This document shows, piece after piece, positions 3,502 through 60,124 of a stretch of DNA of 64,000 bases; position 1 is the first letter of the stretch; each line of letters starts with the position of its first letter. The stretch comes from Erythrobasidium yunnanense (lineage: Eukaryota; Basidiomycota; Cystobasidiomycetes; Erythrobasidiales; Erythrobasidiaceae): positions 1,202,115 through 1,266,114 of the forward strand of contig BCJC01000007.1 in the NCBI GenBank assembly GCA_001600175.1, in the 5' to 3' direction. The position numbers were made by a program, and so were the translations under genes. The notes beneath the pieces are model-generated. The model searched no databases, was not told where the DNA came from, and saw only the letters and a program-made list of their open reading frames with translations.

Positions 3502-6500
3502 GTGCGCCTGCTCGATATCTGGAAGCTCGCTCGCTATGCCTGGCCACTGACGACGTCCGGTCTCGCTGGGAATCCTGCAGTATTCCCAAGGCCTTTCGAT
3601 GGCTCTCAGAGCGATACCCTCTTATCTCACAGCTGATCCAGGAGAATCGTATACCTGAGTTTGGTGCGCTGGACTCTCGCTTCCGGCAAGCTGTCCGTTG
3701 ACGCGATAATCTTATCGCAGATAATCTGTACTTGGACATGAATGGTATCATTCACAACTGCTCACACAACAATAATGAAGATATTACTTTCCGGATCTCA
3801 GAAGAGCAGATCTTCCTCCAAGTATTCGCATACATCGAGCATCTCTTCAGCAAGATCAAGCCGCAGAAACTCTTCTTCATGGCTATCGATGGAGTCGCAC
3901 CGCGTGCAAAGATGAATCAACAACGTAGTAGACGATTCCGATCGGCGAAGGAAACGAATGATAGGCTGCTCGAAGCGAAGCGCAAAGGCGAGGATATTCC
4001 AGATGATGGCAGCGGAGCATTCCAGAGTAATCAGATTACGCCTGGAACACCTTTCATGGCACGCTTGACGGCCAACCTGAAGTACTTTATCAACAAGAAG
4101 ATCACGGAAGATGCGAATTGGAGAGGAGTGCAAGTCGTACTATCAGGGCATGAAGTGCCAGGAGAAGGAGAACACAAGATTATGGAGTACATTCGACTGG
4201 CGAAAGCACAGCCAGATTACAACCCGAACACCCGACATTGCTTGTACGGCCTGGATGCCGATCTTATTATGCTGGGTCTACTATCGCACGACCCGCATTT
4301 CTGTCTACTGAGAGAAGAAGTACTCTTTGGTCCGGCGAAAGCGAAAGCAGCAAAGAAGGGGCTGGAAAATACGACTTTCCACCTCATGCATCTATCCCTC
4401 TTTCGCGAATATCTGGACATCGAGTTCAGGGACTTGAAGGAAATCATGCCGCCTGAGAATCCCTACGACTTAGAACGCATCATCGACGATTTCATCCTCT
4501 TGGCCTTCTTTATCGGAAACGATTTCTTACCGCATCTACCCGATCTACATATCAACGAAGGCGCGCTCAATCTGCTCTTTGGCATATACAAGAAGATACT
4601 ACCTACCGCTGGCGGGTACCTGAATGAACACGGCAAGCTCAGCACGGAACGACTCCAGCTCGTGCTTGACGAGCTCGCAGCTTTCGAAAGGGAGAAGTTC
4701 GAAGAGGAGAATGCAGATGCATCTTGGTCACGGCTAAAGAATGCAGGCAAAGACGCTACGAAGCAGGCTGCTCAAAAGCGCAAAGGCAAAGCTACCATCA
4801 CGCATGCTCAGCGAGGCCTTCTCGCATCCATCAAGACATTTTTGACTAGCAACCTCGACAACCCTACTCTCTCAGCAAAGCTGGAATTACCAGCAAGCTT
4901 CTCAGCATCGGACAGAGCGTTCTTACAGACTTTGGGAGACGAGCTCAAGTTGGACATCGCCTTCGATGAGTTTGATGCCAATGATGACCCTGTCATCGTG
5001 GTCAGATTGAGCGAGTACATCATCGAGGTCATGCAAGTCAGTGACATAGAGGACGAGATTGCGCTAGCTGGCGTCGACTGCGACGAGCAGTTGCTAAGCG
5101 ACGAGGAAGAAGGTGAAGGAGATTGGGAGGATGTCGACGAAGAAGGTTCGCAAGAAGAGCAAGATGTCATTCCCGGCAATAGTCAAGGCATGAACAATGT
5201 CATGGAAGGTCTAAAGAACGTAAAGCTCAACGGCAAAGCGGCTGTCAAACCGGCGCCCGAAGTGCCAGAATGGCGGCAGGCCCTTGAACGTGTATTCACT
5301 AAATATGAGAAGGCTCCGAACTCGAAAGAGTTCGCCAAATCGGCAGCCGAGCACGAGAAAGAATACGAGAACTTCGTAGATGATCGCCTGCATGAGTTCA
5401 AGACTGGTTACTATCGGGAGAAGCTGGAATTCGACATCAACAAAGAGCCACAAGCACTCAAAGATATGGCTTTCTCGTATGTCGAAGGCTTGCAATGGGT
5501 GCTGCACTATTACTACGACGGAGTAGCTTCGTGGTCATGGTTCTATCCCTACCACTACTCGCCAAAGATATCAGGTCAGTCGTCTATTTGGCTGTGCGAC
5601 TGCATTCGCGCTGAATGTGCTACTAGATCTCGTCGATGTCCCGTCGATGAAGTTTGACTTCGACCTCAACAAGCCTTTCAAGCCCTTCGAACAGCTTATG
5701 GGTGTACTACCCGAGCTCAGCTGTACGCTCGTGCCGATACCGTATCGCGTAAGTGCTGCGCGACACCTGCCTCGGCTCCTCCGACTGACGCGTTCTTACA
5801 GGACTTGATGACCGATCCGAATTCGCCCGTCAAGGACTTCTACCCTCAATCGTTCGAAGAGGATTTGAATGGAAAGAAGCAGGAGTGGGAGGCTATCGTC
5901 AAGATTCCCTTCATCAACGCAGATCGCCTTCTGAAAGCAATGGCATCGCGAGAGGCAAGATTGACGGAGGAAGAAAGAACGCGCAATTCGTTCGGCAACA
6001 GCTACATCTTCACATACGAGCCGACACTCAATGCGACTTATCCTTCCTCGAGTCCAGGCTTCTTCCCCGATCTATACAACACCAAGTGTCAGATCGCTGT
6101 CTTCAATCTTCCTACTCTTGGTGGACTCCGCCTGGTCAAGGGGCTTTGCGAGGGCGTTCTGCTGCATGAGCACGCTCTGCCAGGCTTCCCTTCCTTATTC
6201 ACTCTCCCTCATACAGCTCATATCGCATACCACTCAGTCAATGTCTTCCAGTCTGATTCAAGGAACGAATCAGTAATCATCAGTATTGATGATCAATACT
6301 CTGGCTTGGCCGTTGAGCAGATTGCACAGCAAACACTCGGTCGCATTACGCATGCCGGCTGGCCATATCTGCAAGAAGCGAAGATCGTGGCTGTTTCTGA
6401 CGAGGAGACGAAGCTATTTATTGACGAAGCTAGCGGCGCGATGTCAACCATTCGTCAGTCACCTGAGCAGAAGGAGAAATGGCGAAAAGCGGCAGCGAAG

Positions 6501-8343
6501 CTGGAGCATGTATACTCGAAGCGCTTTGCGACTTTGATCCATGGCGTGGACGTCATACTTCATGTCCGCTTGCTGAACGGTTTGAAGCGTCTTGACGATG
6601 GGGCGCTGGTCAAAGATTGGGCAGACGAGATTACCGAACAGGCCGTTCAAGCGACTGTCCTGCAGGTCACAAAGGAGGATCCGCGCTACGTGGAGCATCC
6701 GCCTATGCCTATCGATCAAGAATTCCCTTTGAACTCGAAAGTCTTCTTCTTAGGGCAGGGCAGCTACGGTACTCCGGCAGTGGTTGTCGGGCATGAAGCA
6801 GATACCCTCAGTATACAGACTGCAGTAAGTCTGAACTTAGCGGGTACATGTGATAGCTAATTGGACTCTCGCCATCCAGTTCTTCATGTCGGACCGCAAT
6901 GAGCCGGCCATCTTCGCAGCGCGTAACGCTACACGAGCGCAGACTCGTTATTTACCTTCCTTCGTGGTATGCAAGCAGATCCGCATGTCAGCCTTGACCC
7001 TATCCAAGATTACCTCAGGCTTGATGATCGAGGTTGCGAATGGGCAGCGGATCAATGCCGGTCTCAATCTCAAATTCGAAGCAAGGAGTCAGAAGGTGCT
7101 AGGCTATGCGCAAAGGAATGAGCGCGGCTGGGAGTATTCACAGAAAGCAATCGATCTGATTACGGAGTACAAGTCGAAATTCCCGGAGATCATCTTAGCC
7201 TTGGATGGAAAGTCAAACGATCTGACCAAGGCAGCCGATTTCTTCCCTACAAACACCGAGGCTCGCATGACGGAGCTCAAAGACTGGATCAAAGAGAAGG
7301 GCGTTCGTGACTTCGAGAAGGTCTCGCTATATTCCGATCAGATGGAAAAGGAGGCCGTCCAGGATGTGGAGCAGCTGCAAACGAAGCTCTATGCTGCGAA
7401 AGATCCTTCAACAATGAAGATCGCACTGGTAAAGAACCTTCCTCGAAGAGCTGTCATCAAGCCGGAACACACCACGAGTCGCTTGCAGCATCAGCACTTC
7501 AACGTTGGCGATCGAGTCATCACTGTTCAGGAAACAGGCAGCGTGCCTCTTGCTGTTCGAGGTACCGTAGTCGGTATTCAGGCTGGCTTTATCGACTGCG
7601 TGTTCGACATTCCCTTCCTAGGAGGTACAACGTTGAACGGACGGTGAGCAGCTTCACTAACTATACCTGAAACCCTACTTACTTCCGTCTTCATCAGCTG
7701 CTCACAATATCGCGGTATGAGCGTACTGGGCACGCAAATCCTGAATCTGTCCGAGGTACAACTGCTTCAATCAGTCGTACAGAATGCACCTGCGCCTGTC
7801 CGAAAGCCTCAGCAAACGAATGGACAAGCCAACGGACATGCTGCAGGAGCTACTTCGCACCCGAGCTACCGTGGCTTTGCACCTCGAGGTGGGCCACCTG
7901 CTGCGTCACGAGGACGAGGAAGAGGCAACGGCCCCGTTCAGATACTTGGACGCGGCGGCAAGGCTTCAACAGGCAATTACCTTGCAGCCACACAAGGCGG
8001 CGATGGAGCATACGCTCCTGTCAGCAAGTCGGCCAATCTGCTGTCGACTTTGACCGGACAGCAAGCACAACAGCTACCTCATAATGCAGGTCCACGCCAG
8101 GTCGCCCGTCAAGACTATCATAACGTCGCACCCCCTAGTGAGCTGAATCAGCCCTCACAGAGGGGAGGCGCAGGGCATCGAGGAAGGGGAAGAGGACGTG
8201 GGAACTTCAATGGCGTGCCATCTCTGGTGCGGCCTGAAGCAAGTACATCTACGGTACCTACCGATGGTGCAACCGCTCAGAGAGGCCGAGGAAGAGGCCG
8301 TGGCCGAGGTGTAGGGCGTGCAAGACCAGTTGGCACAGCATAA
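3497..8343 (+). CDS. XRN1: 5'-3' exoribonuclease 1 (Xrn1/Kem1)
   Basis: Cytoplasmic 5'-3' exoribonuclease that degrades decapped mRNA. Seven exons: 3497-3501, 3581-3663, 3721-5574, 5627-5748, 5802-6824, 6880-7643, 7698-8343; the sum is 4497 nt (1498 aa), divisible by three. The first coding exon is only ATGGG; splicing yields the conserved start MGIPK and then FRWLSERYPLISQLI. Catalytic acidic motifs are present: NLYLDMNGIIHNCSH, SGHEVPGEGEHKI and GLDADLIMLGLL. The Xrn1-type PFEQLMGVLP and LMTDPNSPVKDFYP blocks follow. The C-terminal ~200 residues are low complexity with RGG/GRGRG repeats, likely RNA-binding or condensate-prone. XRN1 rather than Rat1, because of its length and the absence of the Rat1 zinc knuckle. 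Confidence 0.95.
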
Positions 8344-22052: not shown

Positions 22053-23058
22053 ATGTCTCAGTCTCACTTGCACGACGGCGCAGCAGCGCATTCGCACTCT
22101 CACGATGGAGCAGCTAATGACCATGGGCATACTCACGAGCACCTCACTCACCCAGGGAAGTTCTCGATGCGCGACATGCCGACGTACGACAATCGCAACT
22201 GGAAAGAGCGAGCCTTTACGATAGGGATAGGCGGTCCCGTAGGATCTGGCAAGACTGCTTTAACACTTGCGTTGTGCAAGTTGTTCAGAGATAGGATCAA
22301 TCTTGGTGTCGTTACCAACGATATCTTTACGAGAGAAGACCAGGAGTTCTTGATAAGGAACGAGGCGCTTCCTGATAAAGGCCGAATCAGAGCGATAGAG
22401 ACTGGTGAGCGCGTATCATGTTCCTCGAATCATAGCATCATACTGAGCACCTCACTGGGATAAACAGGCGGATGCCCTCATGCTGCTATTCGCGAAGACA
22501 TCTCGGCGAACCTGAACGCGCTGGAAGAGCTACAGGCGGACTACAACTGCGAGCTTCTGCTCGTAGAGAGCGGAGGGGACAATTTGGCTGCCAACTACTC
22601 CCGCGAATTGGCGGACTATATTATATATGCAAGTTCCTGATATCAACACGATTGGATCTTTGCTGACTTGCTATCCGACGTACAACAGGTCGTACGTAGT
22701 AGGCTACCTCACTTCCGGTCCGGCTAATGATAAGGTAGATCGACGTGTCTGGAGGTGATAAAATACCTCGAAAGGGCGGGCCAGGTATCTCGCAAAGCGA
22801 TCTACTCGTAGTGAACAAGGTCAGTGATTCCTTCTCACCGCTCACATCCGACTCGACTGAAGGTGACTGCTATCCCTGCAGATCGATCTCGCACCACACG
22901 TGGGCGCCGACCTTTCAGTCATGTCTCGCGATGCAGCCAAGATGCGAGACTCTGGACCTACGCTGTTCACGAGTGTCAGACAGAATCAAGGCGTAGACCA
23001 GGTTGCGATGCTGATAGAGGCTGCATGGAAGCAGAGCGGGGCGAGTTCGAGCTCTTAA
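22053..23058 (+). CDS. ureG: Urease accessory GTPase UreG
   Basis: SIMIBI GTPase that helps load nickel into urease. Exons 22053-22404, 22468-22628, 22689-22691, 22739-22819 and 22882-23058 give 257 aa. The His-rich N-terminus (HSHSHDG, HGHTHEH) is typical of eukaryotic UreG and may bind metal. P-loop: [18 protein letters not shown]; then [42 protein letters not shown] and [24 protein letters not shown]. Two things are odd: the intron after 22628 starts with GC, and a three-base exon supplies the conserved Val of IYVIDV. It converges on the Ohr gene, 153 bp between stops. Confidence 0.93.
22689..22691 (+). other. ureG: Three-nucleotide microexon (GTC, Val) in ureG
   Basis: The upstream intron 22629-22688 runs GCAAGT to ACAACAG. 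The downstream intron 22692-22738 runs GTACGT to GGTAG with a CTAATGA branch point. Keeping GTC gives [16 protein letters not shown]; skipping it removes the Val conserved in UreG proteins but keeps the frame. Confidence 0.7.
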
Positions 23059-27026: not shown

Positions 27027-27847
27027 ATGACTTCCGCACCACCTCCCTCTGCGACTACATCAACCCTCGATGGGACCCTCTCCGCTGCCACCTCTCCCGT
27101 AGTCCGAGACTATGCATTCACGACTGAGCCGAGTCTCCCTGAAGCCAAAAGCGCCATCGGAGCTCGATTCCTGGTACGAGATTCGCTCTTCGTCGCCAGT
27201 CCTACTGGCTACGACCATGGTGCACCAGTGAGTGATCTGGTGCTGCCTTGTTCGGACTGGAGCTGATCCGAGCTGCAGGGACCTTTGTCGATATCAGAGT
27301 CACCTCTTCCTGCCATCAACGAAGAATCGCAGCCCTCTCCTCCTGTTCCGAGCTATGAATCGGCGACTAATAGTCCAGACAAGCCGGCACACGACAACAA
27401 ACACCCTCTCGAGATCGCTCAACTGGCGAAGATGTACGAGCGAAAGGACTTGCCGGAGCCTGGGCCAGCTAGAGAAACAAACAAGACACGATGCGTAGCG
27501 CTCTGCGGTAAGCATTTACGTCCTCGATCTCGCACATGACAAATCGCTGATCGACGTCTCCACTTTAGCGTGTGCCTTCATCATACTGATGTTCATGAAC
27601 GGCTCTCTGGTCCTCGCTATGCTATTTGCGACCGAGGTAAGCGCGTCTACGACACCAAAGACCCCTTCCGCTCATATCGCTGTTTTGACAGCGCATCGGT
27701 CTACAGGAGGGTCAGACACCATCAGGTAAACAGCAGGTCACTGCAGCTGCTCTATCGGGATTGTTATCAGCTATTCCATCGGGCATGTTTCTCGGACTCG
27801 CTTGGTGTGCTTTTCGCATGGAAAGACGCACTGCCCTCGAGGCGTAG
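27027..27847 (+). CDS. Two-TM membrane protein, function unknown
   Basis: 217 aa from exons 27027-27227, 27279-27507, 27569-27636 and 27692-27847. The first ~140 residues are hydrophilic and Pro/Ser-rich (ESQPSPPVPSYESATNSPD). Two hydrophobic segments follow: CAFIILMFMNGSLVLAMLFA and LSGLLSAIPSGMFLGLAWCA. It ends RMERRTALEA. All junctions have good donors and the frame closes. The family is not recognised. Confidence 0.65.
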
Positions 27848-28024
27848 GTATGAAAATACGAACCCTATATGCCGAGAGTAATACTACAGAAACGAAAGTG
27901 ATGGCGCAGAGCGGTTGCGGACTTTGCCCAGGTGTTTGACGGTCTGACGCATATCCCGGCGAAGACTTTGCCTCCTTTGCAAGCAGGCTCTCTTCTTCTT
28001 TGCCCATACTTCTGCAGACTCGAC

Positions 28025-30113
28025 ATGCTGTTGCTGGCTCAGCAGGTTGTCCTTCTATCGACATGTCTCGTATCGGCTATCTCCGCTGCTCGGTTAGGCG
28101 AGAAACCCATGCTTGGATGGAGCAGTTGGAACAAGCACGCGACTTCATCGCACAGATTAGGTGTCTTGTGCTGACTATGCGCGCAGGTTTCAATGCGACA
28201 TCAACGAAACGGTTATTTTCAATGCAGCTAAAGCCATACGCGAGCGGGGCCTGCTGGACCTGGGGTGGGTCGCAACCGCTATCGCTCAGAAGTGTAGCTT
28301 ACGCTTTAGAAGCAGATATGAATACATAGCAGTCAGTCTCTGCTGGTCGCTGCTGCATAAGTACCCCTATCTTCGCTAACGCGCGTTCGCAGATTGACGA
28401 TGTACGAGCTGATTTGCTGACGAAGTTTGACCTACACTCATGAACTACTCGCAGTGCTGGCAAGCGGATGCGAGAGAGCCGGAAACCAACAAACCGCTCG
28501 CTCATCCTGACAAGTTTCCATCTGGCTTCAAGAATCTGACTGATAGCCTGCACAATATGGGCTTCAAGGTCGGGATCTATAGCTCTGCTGGTACGATGAC
28601 CTGTCAAAGACGATTCGGCAGTCTGCACTACGAGGAGATCGATGCGAAACAGTATGCTGAGTGGGGCTTCGATCTGCTGAAGTATGGTAAGTGGTTTTGT
28701 TGTAATCAAGTCTTGCTCAGCTAATGGTTGTGTTAGACAACTGGTAGGCCATGTTTTGAGGAATGTTACGCGAGCTTCACTAAAGCATGCGATCAAGCTA
28801 CAACGAAGGTCTTCACGGAACACCTTGGCTCAGCCGTGACCGCTACAAGAAGATGGCGGACGCTCTTCAAAAAGCCGGAAGAAGTGTATGGTACTACCTG
28901 TGCAACTGGGTAAGCCTTAAGAGTGCAGCGAGCGGAAGGTATGGACTAATACGCATTGCAGGGCGAAGACAACCCATGGGATGTAAGCTACTTTATTCTG
29001 TTCTCTGGCAAACAGACTGATTCCCTTAAAGTGGGCATATCTATTTTCTCAGAGTTACCGTATCGCAGGTGGGTGTCGTCAGTGAGGGGATAGATGCACA
29101 GCTGACCTAATGAGAAGGCGATGTTGGCGACAATTACGGTATGTACAGTTGCGGTACCTGCAAGTATCCATTCCTGAGGTGAATTTGCAGATCGACAGGA
29201 CGATAACTGCCCTTGTATCGGCACCCTGGAGCAATGCGCCGTGGCTGGCTTCGGATGCTCCATCATGTCATATACCGACAGAGCTGCGAGCGTGGTACAC
29301 AAGTCCTTCGTAGGCAGCTGGGCTGACCTGGACGGACTAGAAGTAAGCGGCCGTTACGCAGGTTGACAACCTTGCTGATATACCTGTAGGTTGGGAACGG
29401 AGGCATGACGTTCAATGAATATAAAAGCCAGTTCAGCTTATGGGCTTTGGTGAAGAGCCCGCTTATGCTTGGCCACGATCCGAAGGAAACGTAAGCTTCT
29501 TTGACGTCTCTATCCGGCAAAGATGGGCTGAGACAGGCTTCATCCACCAGATCTGCGGAGACTATGAAGATCATAAGCAATAAGCGGATCCTGGGCATCA
29601 ATCAGGATCCAGCAGGCCGCCCAGGCTATCGTGTCTGGAAAGACTCGGCCAGTAAGAGCAACATCCAATTATGGAGGGCCGACATAGGAGGAGGGTAAGC
29701 TTGTTCTTTTCTCTCAAACGTAGACGCCAGCCCACGTGTATTCTTTAGCCGCTATGCACTTCTTCTCATCAACTCGACTCCTCTGAACCAGCGCGTCGAA
29801 GTCAAGCTAAGAGAAGACTTTTTCCGCAAAGAGGTCAGTTCTGCAGGGATCCTGCATATACTGTCACTGACGTTGTCTTCGCTCCCTTTGCAGCGCAACA
29901 TCCGCACATCAGACTTTGAGCTTCACGATCCCTGGGCAAGCGAGAAGTCACTTGGTCGGGGTAGGCACATACTGGACCTCGATGTCCCCACTCATGGCGT
30001 CCGCTTCCTCGAGCTGGTACCGAAAGGACAGTCGTAAGTCGCTTACCCTCCGTGAACTGATCGTGTATATTGAGCTATGCTACAGGAAGGTGGCATTGGT
30101 ACAGCAATTTTGA
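28025..30113 (+). CDS. Secreted alpha-galactosidase, glycoside hydrolase family 27
   Basis: Releases terminal alpha-galactose from oligosaccharides. 430 aa from sixteen exons: 28025-28134, 28187-28264, 28316-28331, 28393-28401, 28455-28686, 28737-28743, 28798-28909, 28962-28982, 29032-29068, 29118-29138, 29191-29342, 29390-29490, 29551-29694, 29749-29833, 29894-30033, 30086-30113. Signal peptide [20 protein letters not shown]. Motifs: [52 protein letters not shown] with the nucleophile Asp, YRIAGDVGDN with the likely acid/base Asp, [37 protein letters not shown]. Intron 1 needs a GC donor. The stop is 10 bp from that of the next gene. Confidence 0.9.
28316..28743 (+). other. Cluster of microexons in the GH27 gene (16, 9 and 7 nt)
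   Basis: Exons 28316-28331, 28393-28401 and 28737-28743 encode GYEYIA, IDD and the core of YDNC. Each has AG before and GT after it. Removing any one destroys a conserved GH27 motif, and removing the 16- or 7-nt exon also breaks the frame. Confidence 0.78.
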
Positions 30114-34111: not shown

Positions 34112-35214
<1,103 letters not shown>

Positions 35215-35409
35215 TACTAAGTGGTCTCATGAGTCGCGTAGTCTTGAGTAATCGGTTTGTTGTCGTACTTTGGCTTTCTTACTATCTTTCACATTGTGCT
35301 GTAGGCTCTATTTCACGCACATCTTGTAGCCAATGATCAATCCTAATGCTTTCATGAGTCAATAATGTACACGTGCGGCCCTTATCATCGCACTTACTGC
35401 AAGATTACC

Positions 35410-37779
35410 ATGGCGAGTTTTGCGAGTTTCCAGAATGAGATCGAGCAGTATTCGCGACAGCATCTCAAAGCTGGCTACGCCAAAGAAGCCGCGACTTTGA
35501 CGGGAAAGCTTTCGAAAGCCAGCGTGCAAGCGGCGGCGGTGGCAGATGAGAATCGATCGCATGCAGCAGCTATCAAGCAAGTCGCAGAGGGTTCAGACGA
35601 TGATGGTAGAACGATACTCGTAAGTTCATGCGCGACGAGCCGTAAGAATCAAGACTGATGATCATGCAGGAGCGGCTACTCCATCCTACCGAAGCTTCTA
35701 CCTCTTCCCTGGCTTCACTGCTCAACAGGCATATAGAACTATCACAAGGAGAAGTGCTTCTGGCTCTTTCAGCCCATAACCTGAACGAAAAGTCATTAGC
35801 ATCACTGTTCGAAGCCCCGGACCGATCTGCCGGAACTTCATCTTCTTCTGCCCTCCCTTTAGTAACCAAGCAAGACACTCTGACCGCGTTGAATAGTATA
35901 AAAGAAGCTGCGGCCGAGGTCTCGCTGCACGCCTCGATCTTATGGAATCCTTTGGACGAGACTAACGAGTCAGAGGAGAATGCTCTTAGCAAGTACGCGC
36001 CGGAGACTAGTGCAAACGATGAAGAGACAACAAAGCTATGGACGGCAGGCGATGTGCTCTACGTCATGGTTCGTGCGAAGCCGCATACGGCAGAAGAGCT
36101 TCTGGAGCTGCGTGTTGCCGTGGTAGGCAATGTCGATGCAGGAAAGTCGACGCTGTTGGGTGTGATGACGAAAGGTCGTTTGGATGATGGCAGAGGGCGA
36201 GCGAGAGTTGCGCTCTTCAGACACAAGCATGAGATAGAGACTGGTAGGACCTCAAGCGTTGGTATGGAGATACTCGGCTTCGGACCTCAAGGGAATGAAG
36301 TTATGTCAGACGTCGTCGGTGGATCAGCAACTTCACAGCAGCCGCAAGGTGCGACCACAGCGGCCCGCAAAAAGGATCTTAGCTGGGATGAGATCTGCAA
36401 AGAGGCTGCTAAAGTCGTCGGCTTTATCGATCTTGCTGGGCATGAGAGGTGACTATCCATCTTGTAGTACGTGGACGGTACTAAAAATCCTTGCAGATAC
36501 TTCAAGACGACTATTGGTGCCCTTTCCTCCTGCGCTCCAGACTTTGTTCTGCTCATCATCGGAGCAAACGCGGGCATTGTCGGAATGAGCAAGGAGCATC
36601 TTTCGGTAGCCCTGGCGTTGAACGTTCCTGTCGTTTGCGTGGTCACCAAGATTGACAGCACGCCAGCAAACGTTCTCGACAGTACCCTCAAACAGCTTTC
36701 GAAGATCTTAAGGTCGCCAGGATGCAGGAAGCAGCCTGTCTATGTCAAGAACAGGGGTATGGCATGTAGTCTTGCTAAAGGTTTCGTGCAAGCCAAGTCA
36801 GTACTCCTGGACTATCGTCAGCATGGCAATAGCTAATGCATTTAGCAGAGCTGCTCCCATCTTCTTAGTCTCGAATGTCAACGGAGATGTAAGTATGCTT
36901 TTATGCCTGATTTGCGCGTGATACTGACTAACTTTCACCTCTTGTCGCGGACAGGGCTTGCAGTCTCTGAGTGGGTCGAATCCCGTTGCAAAACTTTCAC
37001 CAGACTGATCGAGACTTCCCTTCACTACAGAATACTTCCTCAACGCCTTGACTCCCGTGTCACAAAGCAAATTCGACCCGAACGCTGCGCTAGAGCTGTC
37101 TATCTCGGACGTCTTCTCAGTGCCCTTCGTGGGCTGCGTCGTCTCGGGAGTTATTCTTTCAGGATCCATTAAAGCAGGAGACAACATCCTGATAGGCGTA
37201 AGCTTTGCGGACTGATATTTAGACCGTGACTGATGCTGTTTCTTCCCTAGCCTGACTCGCTCGGTGCTTTCATCCCTACGTCTGTTCGATCAATAGAAAG
37301 AAAGCGAGTGAGGGTAGCTGGTGGAGAAGCGGGCCAGTCTGTAGCGCTGGCGCTGAAGCGAATCCGTCGAAACCAAGTCCGCAAAGGCATGGTCCTGTTA
37401 AGCGCAGACGCGACACCTAAAGCGGTCACTCGTTTCACTGCTTCCGTCCTGATCCTCTATCACAACTCTACTATCGCGAAAGGATATCAAGCCATGGCAC
37501 ACATAGGATCGATCCGACAGACGGTCAGGATCGTCGATATCGACAAGCCTTTCGTCAGAACCGGTGATAGAGCGTCAGTGGTCTTTGAGTTCATCAAGTC
37601 ACCCGAATTCACAAGACCTGGCTCTCGTATTCTATTCAGAGAGGGTAAGACGAAGGTGCGTCTTTGGTCTTTTCGCCTAGGTTATGCGGGAATTGATAAT
37701 CGCTGTGCAGGGTCTCGGAGTGATAACATCGCTCACAGGAGAGCTACCTGCAACGTCTACGGCACCGTCCAAGGCATAA
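35410..37779 (+). CDS. GTPBP1/GTPBP2-type translational GTPase
   Basis: EF-Tu-like GTPase of the GTPBP1 family, linked in animals to mRNA decay and ribosome rescue. 591 aa from exons 35410-35619, 35670-36448, 36497-36796, 36849-36888, 36955-36970, 37031-37197, 37251-37655 and 37711-37779. G1: [35 protein letters not shown] across intron 2; [15 protein letters not shown]4: VVTKID. Beta-barrel domains: [20 protein letters not shown] and [18 protein letters not shown]. One exon (36955-36970) is 16 nt and joins to give [14 protein letters not shown]. The N-terminal ~150 residues are fungal-specific and helical. Confidence 0.88.
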
Positions 37780-38122
37780 TCAGAAAGTCCGCATTCTGCC
37801 GGAACAGTCTTCGCGAGAAAGCGGTTATGTAGCATAATAGCAACAGTTCGAGCATTCGTTGAAGTTGTTGTCGTTGTGCGAAGTACCTCTGTATTGGGGC
37901 GAGCAGCGGACCACCTGCATGAGTGGCTCGGGTCCTCTGTCACGCTCAGATCAACCAATTCCTCTTTCGTCAAAGCATCCCGGAAAGCTCAGCCTTCGCG
38001 TCGCTGTGCACATCAAGAAGACCACAACACACTCCTTTCGCGGCCTGCTGACCTTCCAACCGCGAATCGGCGCGCACGAATTGGCCTCATCTGCTTTTGG
38101 CTATCGGATTTCGCGCAACAAC
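37780..38122. other. Intergenic, SET9 upstream region
   Basis: No protein-like frame or recognisable element. It contains the 3' flank of the GTPBP1-type gene and the SET9 promoter. Confidence 0.4.
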
Positions 38123-40309
38123 ATGGGCAAAAAGGTTACGACTCTCGAGCATGCGAAACGGGACGATGACCTGCTCAGGTAAGGCTCAAGGAAGATCTCG
38201 CCAGAACGCGATAGCGCTGGCTCGTCTGGGCGTGATCAGAGAAATTGACGCGACTATGCCATTGCTGTAGCTACCTCTTCATTGATCTGGCGTCATTTCT
38301 GGTCAGTAATCGTTACAGAGGAACTACGCGAAGCAAGCTGATATCCTGTCTACTTGCACAGCGGAGGAAGGACATGAGCCGCAAGATGCAGAGATCCGAT
38401 TTCAAAGTCCCGAACGTAGATTGGGATCAGACGCTCAATCTACTCGATAGAGTACGTATCTAATCGCCTTCCGGCTTTCTCTCGCTGACCAGTTCTGCTT
38501 TGTTTTGCTAGGTTTGGATAGGCGAGGTCGATTCGAAAGAGGCGGCACAGACTCTTCTGAGGTAATAAGCACCATTGTTCCCTTTAGGTATTGGGGTCAT
38601 CAAGCTGATCAACTCGACAGATGCGAAGCCATTAGAAAACTACTGGCCCAAAAGCGCGACGCCGCTCATCGGCAGCACCTTGAAGCGTTCGTTACCAGTT
38701 CAAGACACAAGCCCGATACGAAGACTGACACATGCTGTTGCTTGCAGACATATAGATCGCTACCTAGAGATGTGGCAGCCTGATGTAGGCTACGAGATCT
38801 TCGAGACTAAAAGATACAAGTCAAAGAAGGGCAAGCAGCGCCAGTCTGTCGGGCACCCCACAGCAGTCGCGTCTCAAGCAGACACTTCGTCGAATGGCAC
38901 CGGCGGGCCTGTTGCAAGCGGATCGCAAATATCAGAGGCACCTGCAGAGCCCAAGAAGCCAAATCCGCCTGTACTCGATCTGGGAGTCAGAGCACTCAGA
39001 GGATACGAAGTTGGCGAACACATCAGGCTTTTCGGAAGCGCAGTAGACATCACCGACGAACAAGATGACGAAATGAGAATGGATCCATCGGAGCTCAAGG
39101 CAGATGTAAGCGAGACTGCCCAAGCTGCCTTCTTGCATGAGCTGACTGTTTGGTCAACAGTTCAGCGTCCTCTTCAGTGCAACGCGAAACTGCTTCCAGC
39201 TGTTCATGGGCCCAGGTCGATTCGTCAACGTGAGCATTTTCCAGATAGATTGCCGAACTGCTATACTCATAATACTCTTGACTCCCGCTCCAGCACGACT
39301 GTCACAACAACGTTGAACTAGTCAGAACGGGCCGGAACCTGTGTTTCAAGGTCATTAGGCCAATCGAAATCCACGATGTAAGTACTTTGACACGGTAGGG
39401 AAGTTCGATGCTGATGCGTGGAGCGCAGGAGATCCTCACATACTACGGCTCGGAGTATTTCGGCGAGAAGAACGAGGCATGCCGCTGCGCTACATGCCAG
39501 GTGTAAGCAATGAGCTCTGTGTACGCGAATCCGTCTGACATTGCCACAGCAAAGGCGAAGGAGCCTTCTCAAGTCCATCAAAGAAGAGGAAGCAACAACA
39601 AACGGCTGCAAATGCCAAAGGCCGTACGCGATCTGGCCGGACATACGAGGTCCAGGAAGATAGCGACGCTTCGTCAAGCACAGTAAGTGCCAGAAGGACC
39701 GCTCCCGCTCCAGCAGGGAAACGCGGGAGAGGGAGAGCTCCGCTTGCGAAGGCAGTACTGGCCAAGCGAGCTAAGCTAGCTGCAAAGAAGAAAGCTGCAA
39801 GACAAGCCGGGGACGACAGCGAATTCGAAGATGACAGTAGCGACGATGATAGCGATCCCGACCCTCGAATCATCAAGCGCAGACGGCGCCGGGCCTCCAC
39901 ATCCAGTCTATCGGCATTGTCTGCTAGCGAGTCCGATCTCACCGATATGAGCGACCTCGAGGACAGCGTCGATCTACACGGCGTGGAAGTCGATGCAGAA
40001 ACAGGAACAGCTATCAATCCGCTTACTGGCGCGACAACTGCCCTCGAGCCAACTTCGGCCAATACTACACTACTGGCAGCATCTATCCCTGTTCTTGACG
40101 AAGGCGTACCCACTCCGCAATTGGCCACTCCTGCAGAAGAGCAGACATCTGGGTGGAGCACAGCTAGTGTACTGAAGAGTGCTACCGACTCGATCAACAA
40201 GATGATCTCGATTGTTTCTCCCAAAAGGCTTTCCCTGCCACAAACGCTTCCTCTGTCGCCCCGCACCGAGACCAGCGACGGAATGTCTTCTTACCAGCAG
40301 GACGAGTGA
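38123..40309 (+). CDS. SET9: Histone H4-K20 methyltransferase Set9 (Suv4-20/KMT5 family)
   Basis: Nuclear SET-domain enzyme that methylates H4 Lys20. 576 aa from exons 38123-38178, 38271-38451, 38512-38561, 38588-38686, 38748-39105, 39161-39229, 39294-39377, 39429-39502 and 39550-40309. N-terminal helical part: DDDLLSYLFIDLASFLVSN. SET core: RALRGYEVGEHIRLFGSAVD, DFSVLFSATRNCFQLFMGPG, RFVNHDCHNNVEL, PIEIHDEILTYYGSEYFG and post-SET CRCATC. The tail is basic then acidic, with GKRGRGRAP and IIKRRRRRAS. Intron 3 (38562-38587) is only 26 nt as modelled, and the donors at 38562 and 38687 are the least certain. Confidence 0.87.
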
Positions 40310-58628: not shown

Positions 58629-60124
58629 TCATGGATCGAGTATACCCAATGCGCGCCATGCCTAGCCAACTGTCAGGACGCGAATATTCAACTCTTTAGA
58701 GAAGATATGCTTACATCCATTAGATCACCGACAACAAAGCCCCAGCCTTCTCGAGGAGCACGGCATTCTTTAGGATCCAATAACTCGAACGTAAGGCCGA
58801 AGGTCAAGAATTGTGCGAAGAGGGACTGCAATGCCTTGAAGTCAGCATGTACCTTGATTGGATGGAATTAAACGATCGCTTACATTCAGATGGGCTTCCA
58901 AGCTGAGGTGCAGGATATCCCGGAAGTGAGCATGGTATAGATGTGCGAAGATCCTCAAGAACTGAGTGTAGAGATGTACTGCCGTCTTAGGGAAAGCAGG
59001 CGAGAACTCGCGGCCAGACTTTGTGGGAAACATCGTCTCGTCGCCAATGAGCTTCTCGGCCCACTGGAAGCACGCTCAATGCGTCAGCTCTGGACGGACG
59101 GCCTGACAAGAGGTACTTACCGTCAAGACATAGTCGGTATACTCAGGTGCTGGCACCTTGACTTGTTTTTTCGTCGGACCAGACGTCCATGTATAGTCCT
59201 AGTGTAGACAGCAGTTAGCTAATAAGAAGAAATGCTGCTCCGAGGGGGCAATCACCATGCTGTAGACATATGTGTCAGAATATCTCGAAAGTCATCAGGA
59301 ACATGAACATACCCAGGCCCGGCAGACATCGTAGAGCAGTTGTCGCGCGTGCAATGCTCGCTCACGATACCAAGGAAGAGATTGATGCTGGCAATAGTCT
59401 TCCGTAAGTGCTTTGTATGTCAAACTATGAGCGCATCAGGCGTACTTGTGGAAGAAGTCGACCACTGTTAGGGTAGAAAGGATCAGCACGCGTCTCTCTC
59501 TTCATTGAGCTGTTCACGTACAGTTGACTGCAACCCATTCCATACCATCGACATATTTGGGCACGGCTGTGATTGTTCGGAAGGACCCTTTTACGAGAGC
59601 AGCCTTGACAAATCTGCGCGGTCCACGAAGCAGATCAGAGACATTTTCGTATATAGCCCATCCAAGGACACGCACGGCTCGCAGAGATAGAGAGGTTTCC
59701 CGCCGTTTGGCTGCAGGCAATCGTGCACGCCCATCATAGGCGCCGACGTGTATGGAGCGCCATTTCCACTAGGAAACTGCGGTGTAGTAGGTGTAGTCCC
59801 TCTTCGCAAGCCCTGTTGCTGTTGCTGTTGTTGCTGTTGCTGGCCGTTGCCAGCTGGCTGAGTCCCACGCATCCGTCTGATTGACACAGGAAGAAATGGA
59901 GGCTTTGCGCGTCAGTATAGACCACTACGATACTCGCATCCAAGTCGTGGAATCGTCTGGCTTGAAGGGCTGTTTGTACGGTCTCCCAACATCGGCTTTG
60001 AGCGCCAGGCCAATTCTTTGCCTTTTCGACAAAGGATACATAGGCTTTGTGCATACGCTTGACGTTCGCCAGAGATACAGAGAGTAGGAGCAGGAAGCGC
60101 AACTCACCCTAGAAAGCTACTCAT
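58629..60124 (-). CDS. MOB2: Mob2, NDR/LATS kinase (Cbk1/Orb6) activator
   Basis: Regulatory subunit of NDR kinases in polarity and cell separation. 269 aa from exons 60124-60108, 59876-59676, 59613-59522, 59464-59446, 59387-59313, 59259-59256, 59198-59121, 59063-58884, 58825-58715 and 58661-58629. Mob2 rather than Mob1: YLCEPFVKAALVKGSFRTIT, PKYVDGMEWVAVN, FPTKSGREFSPAFPKTAV and RIFAHLYHAHFRDILHLSLE. An N-terminal run of ten Gln precedes the core. A 4-nt exon is needed to join SAGPG to MDYTWTSG. If the last intron (from 58714) is retained, the end is DVSISSLKS instead of DAWRALGILDP. Confidence 0.9.
59256..59259 (-). other. MOB2: Four-nucleotide microexon (CATG) in MOB2
   Basis: The upstream intron 59312-59260 runs GTATGT to CTACAG. 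The downstream intron 59255-59199 runs GTGATT to CACTAG. CATG completes Gly and adds Met, joining SAGPG to MDYTW. Removing both introns and CATG as one intron shifts the frame and loses the conserved C-terminal half. Confidence 0.75.
59812..59842 (-). repeat. CAG/CAA repeat encoding poly-Gln in MOB2
   Basis: A run of CAG and CAA codons encodes ten Gln near residue 17. The mixed codons suggest moderate stability. Confidence 0.8.

Follow-up and report, generated by a model that had tools for sequence, protein, structure and literature searches.

Gene structure and identity of ureG

The ureG gene of Erythrobasidium yunnanense, evidently an intron-rich fungus, very likely contains a constitutive coding exon of just three nucleotides (GTC, encoding Val172) between two ordinary short U2-type introns, a reading of the sequence that would leave the gene intact. 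The gene lies in the window, the stretch of 64,000 nucleotides on contig 7 that was analysed, in a genome of 20.9 Mb and 10 contigs. It extends from the ATG at 22053 to the stop codon at 23058 and, with its four introns removed, encodes 257 residues. The start codon at 22053 is putative, the gene finder starting the gene at 22167 instead. The features of the gene are as follows:

22053..22404, + strand: ureG exon 1, with the ATG, a His-rich N-terminus and the P-loop GPVGSGKT
22405..22467, + strand: intron 1, GT-AG, 63 nt, also in the held-out finder
22468..22628, + strand: exon 2, ending in ELADYIIY with the final codon TAT at 22628, supported by the structure alignment and the held-out finder
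22629..22688, + strand: intron 2, GC-AG, 60 nt, GCAAGT...CAG
22663..22667, + strand: branch-point-like CTGAC of intron 2, with the A at position 22666, 23 nt upstream of the microexon
22689..22691, + strand: predicted 3-nt microexon GTC (Val172), supported by homology, enumeration, the held-out finder and shuffles
22692..22738, + strand: intron 3, GT-AG, 47 nt, GTACGT...TAG
22724..22728, + strand: branch-point-like CTAAT of intron 3, with the A at position 22727, 12 nt upstream of exon 4
22739..22819, + strand: exon 4, starting ATC GAC GTG, supported by the structure alignment and the held-out finder
22820..22881, + strand: intron 4, GT-AG, 62 nt, also in the held-out finder
22882..23058, + strand: exon 5, up to the stop TAA, also in the held-out finder

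The end of exon 2 at 22628, the start of exon 4 at 22739, the GTC and the 60-nt GC-AG and 47-nt GT-AG introns all lie where an earlier note on this DNA had placed them. The spliced product scored 265.9 bits against TIGR00101, above the curated cut-off of 204.2, which identifies it as UreG; two solved UreG chains can be aligned to its residues 55-245, and both alignments pass through VIDV without a gap. Four of the five TIGR00101 matches in the genome are exons of this ureG gene, while the fifth lies on contig 6 and is weak (22.8 bits, E 6.8e-4). Matches to other genes of the urease pathway were found for urease alpha (contig 6), UreD (contig 3) and UreF (contig 1); because the pathway is present, constraint on UreG is to be expected.

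Conservation of Val172

The relatives with which residue 172 was compared were the best 80 of at least 576 stretches of bacterial or archaeal DNA that code for a relative. By tblastn, 79 of these best 80 of at least 576 have V at this residue, one has I and none has a gap; D174 and V175 are identical in all 80, and one of the 80 has a stop at residue 171. The protein that results from skipping GTC, lacking the Val, has a gap near the junction against every one of the same 80. Removal of Val172 lowered the TIGR00101 score to 257.1 bits, a cost of 8.8 bits, and the Pfam cobW score from 119.8 to 110.1 bits, a cost of 9.7 bits. Judged by this comparison, which is with bacterial UreG only, Val172 is within a conserved core motif, and it is from such protein conservation that we infer that GTC is very probably included in the mature mRNA.

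Enumeration of splice arrangements

All arrangements of GT or GC donors and AG acceptors with introns of at least 30 nt were enumerated for the region 22560-22800. The 147 one-intron and 1,522 two-intron arrangements, 1,669 together, yielded 214 distinct in-frame open proteins. The motif YVIDVSGG is present in three of these proteins, two of which lose conserved upstream sequence through introns that begin at 22570 or 22603, and DYIIYVIDVSGG is kept by the microexon arrangement only among the 1,669. The earlier note had called this the only arrangement that restores the Val, a claim that holds since just one of the three with YVIDVSGG keeps DYIIYVIDVSGG. The other one- and two-intron arrangements enumerated were rejected, none of them keeping DYIIYVIDVSGG, as was intron retention between the outer exons, for which the reading frame is not open. 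Against a bacterial UreG profile built from 79 sequences (the best 80 of at least 576, with one short translation dropped), the microexon form scored best at 337.9 bits, followed by the skip form at 328.7 bits and the next protein at 322.7 bits.

Splice-model and shuffle tests

The exon-intron finder was a simple one, self-trained on sequence without protein homology, and its first setting was discarded as far too permissive (1,770-2,936 introns). With the stricter setting, the exon at 22689-22691 was predicted in five of six iterations, iteration 1 having called no gene there. When training was confined to positions 1-200000 of contig 7, with the window left out, the finder called the 3-nt exon at 22689-22691 on a path of 22.8 bits versus 14.5 bits for skipping, a margin of 8.3 bits. 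The nearest forced alternative kept the microexon and used an acceptor at 22774; it scored 18.8 bits, 4.0 below the best path, and removes twelve conserved residues. As expected of a microexon, taken as an internal exon that does not exceed 30 nt and has an acceptor and a donor of its own, the sequence at 22686-22697 reads CAG/GTC/GTACGT.

The 110-nt interior was also subjected to 20,000 dinucleotide shuffles in which the first six and last three nucleotides were fixed. Some AG/NNN/GY occurred in 2,280 of the 20,000, a 3-nt exon that outscored the single intron in 83, and one that in addition coded for Val in six, while no shuffle among the 20,000 matched the observed microexon score. Homology, enumeration and the held-out splice model all back what had been proposed earlier: the need for the Val, the pairing of a GC-AG with a GT-AG intron, and the microexon.

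Strength of the flanking introns

U2-type introns with GC-AG ends have a GC donor that is otherwise near the consensus (AAGT), a branch point and a YAG acceptor. Intron 2 of ureG has all of these, namely GCAAGT, CTGAC and CAG, and is one of 17 introns with GC donors among the 546 predicted. The median predicted intron is 58 nt, and the earlier description of 60 and 47 nt as normal for this genome was borne out by 486 of 546 introns having lengths of 45-75 nt. Its remark that a single intron of 110 nt would be long was correct in that such introns are uncommon, yet 36 of the 546 are of 110 nt or more, so length by itself does not rule out a single intron.

Among the 546 predicted introns, intron 2 is at the 44.9th percentile for total score and its GC donor at the 11.4th, whereas intron 3 is at the 12.5th percentile for total score and its TAG acceptor at the 9.7th; the 110-nt stretch scored as one intron is at the 2.0th percentile. 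The branch point of intron 3 is 12 nt from the exon, compared with a 5th percentile of 13 nt in predicted introns. An AAG sits 4 nt upstream of the TAG used, and its use would place the exon 8 nt from the branch-point A, under that same 5th percentile; the AAG may be bypassed because it is too near the branch point. The weak side of the arrangement is the TAG acceptor and branch-point distance of intron 3 together with the GC donor of intron 2.

Alternative explanations

A single GC-AG intron of 110 nt, extending from 22629 to 22738 and giving a protein without Val172, is in our judgment quite improbable. It is in frame, confirming the earlier statement that skipping is frame-neutral, and it would be made from sites already present, at a cost of just 8.8 of 265.9 bits for TIGR00101 and with a length shared or exceeded by 36 of 546 introns. 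However, none of the best 80 of at least 576 relatives has a gap at Val172, the held-out model places the single intron 8.3 bits lower, and the internal CTGAC, CAG and GTACGT are left unexplained, an exon coding for Val and better than the single intron having arisen in only six of 20,000 shuffles.

We attach a similarly small probability to a regulated microexon, with inclusion and skipping both used so that UreG with and without the Val acts as a switch. Some skipping is plausible, given the sub-optimal sites and the frame that it leaves unchanged, and small exons that are regulated are described in passages of the literature, including a glucose-regulated microexon of 20 nt in Trichoderma virens (PMC11121469) and the alternatively spliced 3-bp exon of Drosophila hth (PMC7392893). 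Against this, Val172 is in the core motif, with no gap among the best 80 of at least 576 relatives, small exons are without a bias towards multiples of three (17 of 50), and skipping any of four of the five other microexons in the window (4, 7, 11 and 13 nt) would disrupt the frame. No positive evidence emerged for the one-residue switch that the earlier note had suggested, and the conserved residue among these 80 relatives and the divisibility of small exons speak indirectly against it.

A stwintron, in which an internal intron splits one of the signals of an external intron (donor, branch point or acceptor) and no exon separates the two, is the least credible explanation: a pair of adjoining short introns resembles a stwintron, complex introns are known in fungi from parts of two reports (PMC6616335, PMC5639578) and a zero-length exon at 22689, where there is a GT donor, is one route to the skip product, but that product lacks the Val, and nested introns are rejected because the bases that flank the outer-exon join (GCA on the left, TAG on the right) allow only the codons TAG, GAG, GCG and GCA, so that by inspection of the sequence no plain or nested join of the two outer exons makes a Val codon and DYIIYVIDVSGG arises only with GTC retained.

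Discussion

Proposed splicing of the three-nucleotide exon

The GTC exon is most likely constitutive; each flanking intron, equipped with a separate donor, branch point and acceptor, would be recognised by intron definition. Pairing across introns is most likely because the introns are short (the 58-nt median), and as the sites would pair across the intron, an exon would require no minimum size and its length would matter little. Introns 2 and 3 would be removed stepwise and probably not together, since 3 nt cannot plausibly hold two assembling complexes. The report on the 1-nt exon of Arabidopsis, in the portion considered here, likewise argues for stepwise removal (PMC4674806). As for its origin, the exon may have arisen by two independent intron gains that flank one codon; the possibility that one intron is a duplicate of the other received no support in a local alignment of the two, which scored 10.0 while shuffled sequences averaged 11.5. 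The sites, the frame, the conserved residue and the preference of the model can be read directly from the DNA; constitutive inclusion, the order of removal and the origin are predictions.

Comparison with known ultrashort exons

Several exons of similar size have been described in the sources cited here, each from selected passages of the report. One is the 1-nt exon of Fusarium CYP621A, published in 2026 (PMC12940212), which like that of ureG is fungal, lies within a seemingly over-long intron and restores a conserved motif; it differs in being 1 nt and frame-restoring, such that its skipping breaks the frame, and in that its authors report support from transcripts and aligned 24 sequences. 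In Dactylellina haptotyla, lipS has two 3-nt exons (PMC5639578) and is also an intron-rich fungal gene, although the gene and lineage are different and the exons are mentioned in passing in the text cited. The 1-nt exon of Arabidopsis APC11 (PMC4674806) is constitutive and ultrashort, as is proposed for ureG, but it is from a plant, is 1 nt and was experimentally tested; its authors favour intron definition with stepwise (recursive) removal. The Xlr2 microexon of Trichoderma virens (PMC11121469) is fungal and codes for part of a conserved domain, but is 20 nt, is glucose-regulated and belongs to a transcription factor. The micro-exon of Drosophila homothorax (PMC7392893) has the same 3-bp length, but is from an animal, alternatively spliced and overlapped by a 48-bp exon. 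Lastly, the P450 genes of Phanerochaete chrysosporium (PMC1184071) resemble ureG in coming from an intron-dense fungus with small introns and microexons, but their exons are longer (2-10 aa), the shortest being 6 bp.

From what these sources describe, fungal exons of 3 nt and 1 nt are already known (PMC5639578, PMC12940212), and ureG adds another case. The earlier placement of three-base exons near the lower limit known was fair, with the qualification that 1-nt exons are published for Arabidopsis (PMC4674806) and Fusarium (PMC12940212) in the passages cited. In the open-licence literature, no published title was found for a 3-nt exon in ureG, nor any paper for URE7, Cryptococcus and intron in combination. 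The ureG case suggests a further example of intron definition needing almost no exon. It also has a practical consequence, as automatic annotation could easily drop the conserved Val of UreG or break the gene, and likewise for several of its neighbours.

Microexons elsewhere in the genome

The numbers of microexons that follow are predictions, some of which will be wrong. In the joint set, 449 internal exons were predicted in 89 genes; 18 were of 1-15 nt, versus 35.2 ± 5.4 when the same introns were placed randomly, and three were of 1-3 nt, versus 7.3 ± 2.7 expected. The set from training on contig 7 only had ten exons of 1-15 nt (19.6 ± 4.3 expected) and four of 1-3 nt (4.0 ± 2.0 expected). 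Microexons here are about half as many as chance, yet are present. Of 50 predicted exons of 1-30 nt, 17 have a length divisible by three, as by chance; published figures, from part of one report, are about 80% for human and about 50% for plant microexons (PMC8831610).

Within the window, the held-out finder called eight exons no longer than 15 nt. Five microexons in the window other than that of ureG encode conserved motifs and can be aligned to solved structures with no gap over the exon; these and two predictions of the finder are listed below:

27027-30113, + strand: GH27 alpha-galactosidase gene, many exons
28393-28401, + strand: 9-nt exon of the GH27 gene, IDD of IDDCWQ
28737-28743, + strand: 7-nt exon of the GH27 gene, DNC of KYDNCY
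34112-37837, + strand: Rab4-like gene, with exons of 13 nt (VVIIG) and 11 nt (DITR)
59256-59259, - strand: 4-nt exon of a MOB2-like gene, GM, inside the conserved MSAGP..DYTW stretch
6496-6509, + strand: predicted 14-nt exon, held-out finder only
38522-38526, + strand: predicted 5-nt exon, held-out finder only

The 3-nt exon of ureG is therefore not very special within this genome. Extrapolating from 264 kb, we tentatively raise the idea, about which we are more doubtful than confident, that exon size is nearly unconstrained and that ultrashort exons number in the hundreds genome-wide, because exons of 1-6 nt are tolerated at about half the random-placement rate. If true, this fungus would lend itself naturally to testing how short an exon can be and in what order introns are removed, and ultrashort exons as frequent as those sampled would make it a good system for the removal of introns 3 nt apart.

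Two minor observations concern the finder itself. For the Rab4-like gene, its donor was shifted by hand 9 nt downstream before alignment; the finder also fuses this gene to the one downstream, which we take to be translation-GTPase-like, and the two are probably separate genes. Zero-length exons, of which the finder called two in the joint set and four in the set trained on contig 7 only, were not accepted as real; those at 96734 and 106110 of contig 7, where introns abut, are either artefacts of the finder or nested or recursive introns.
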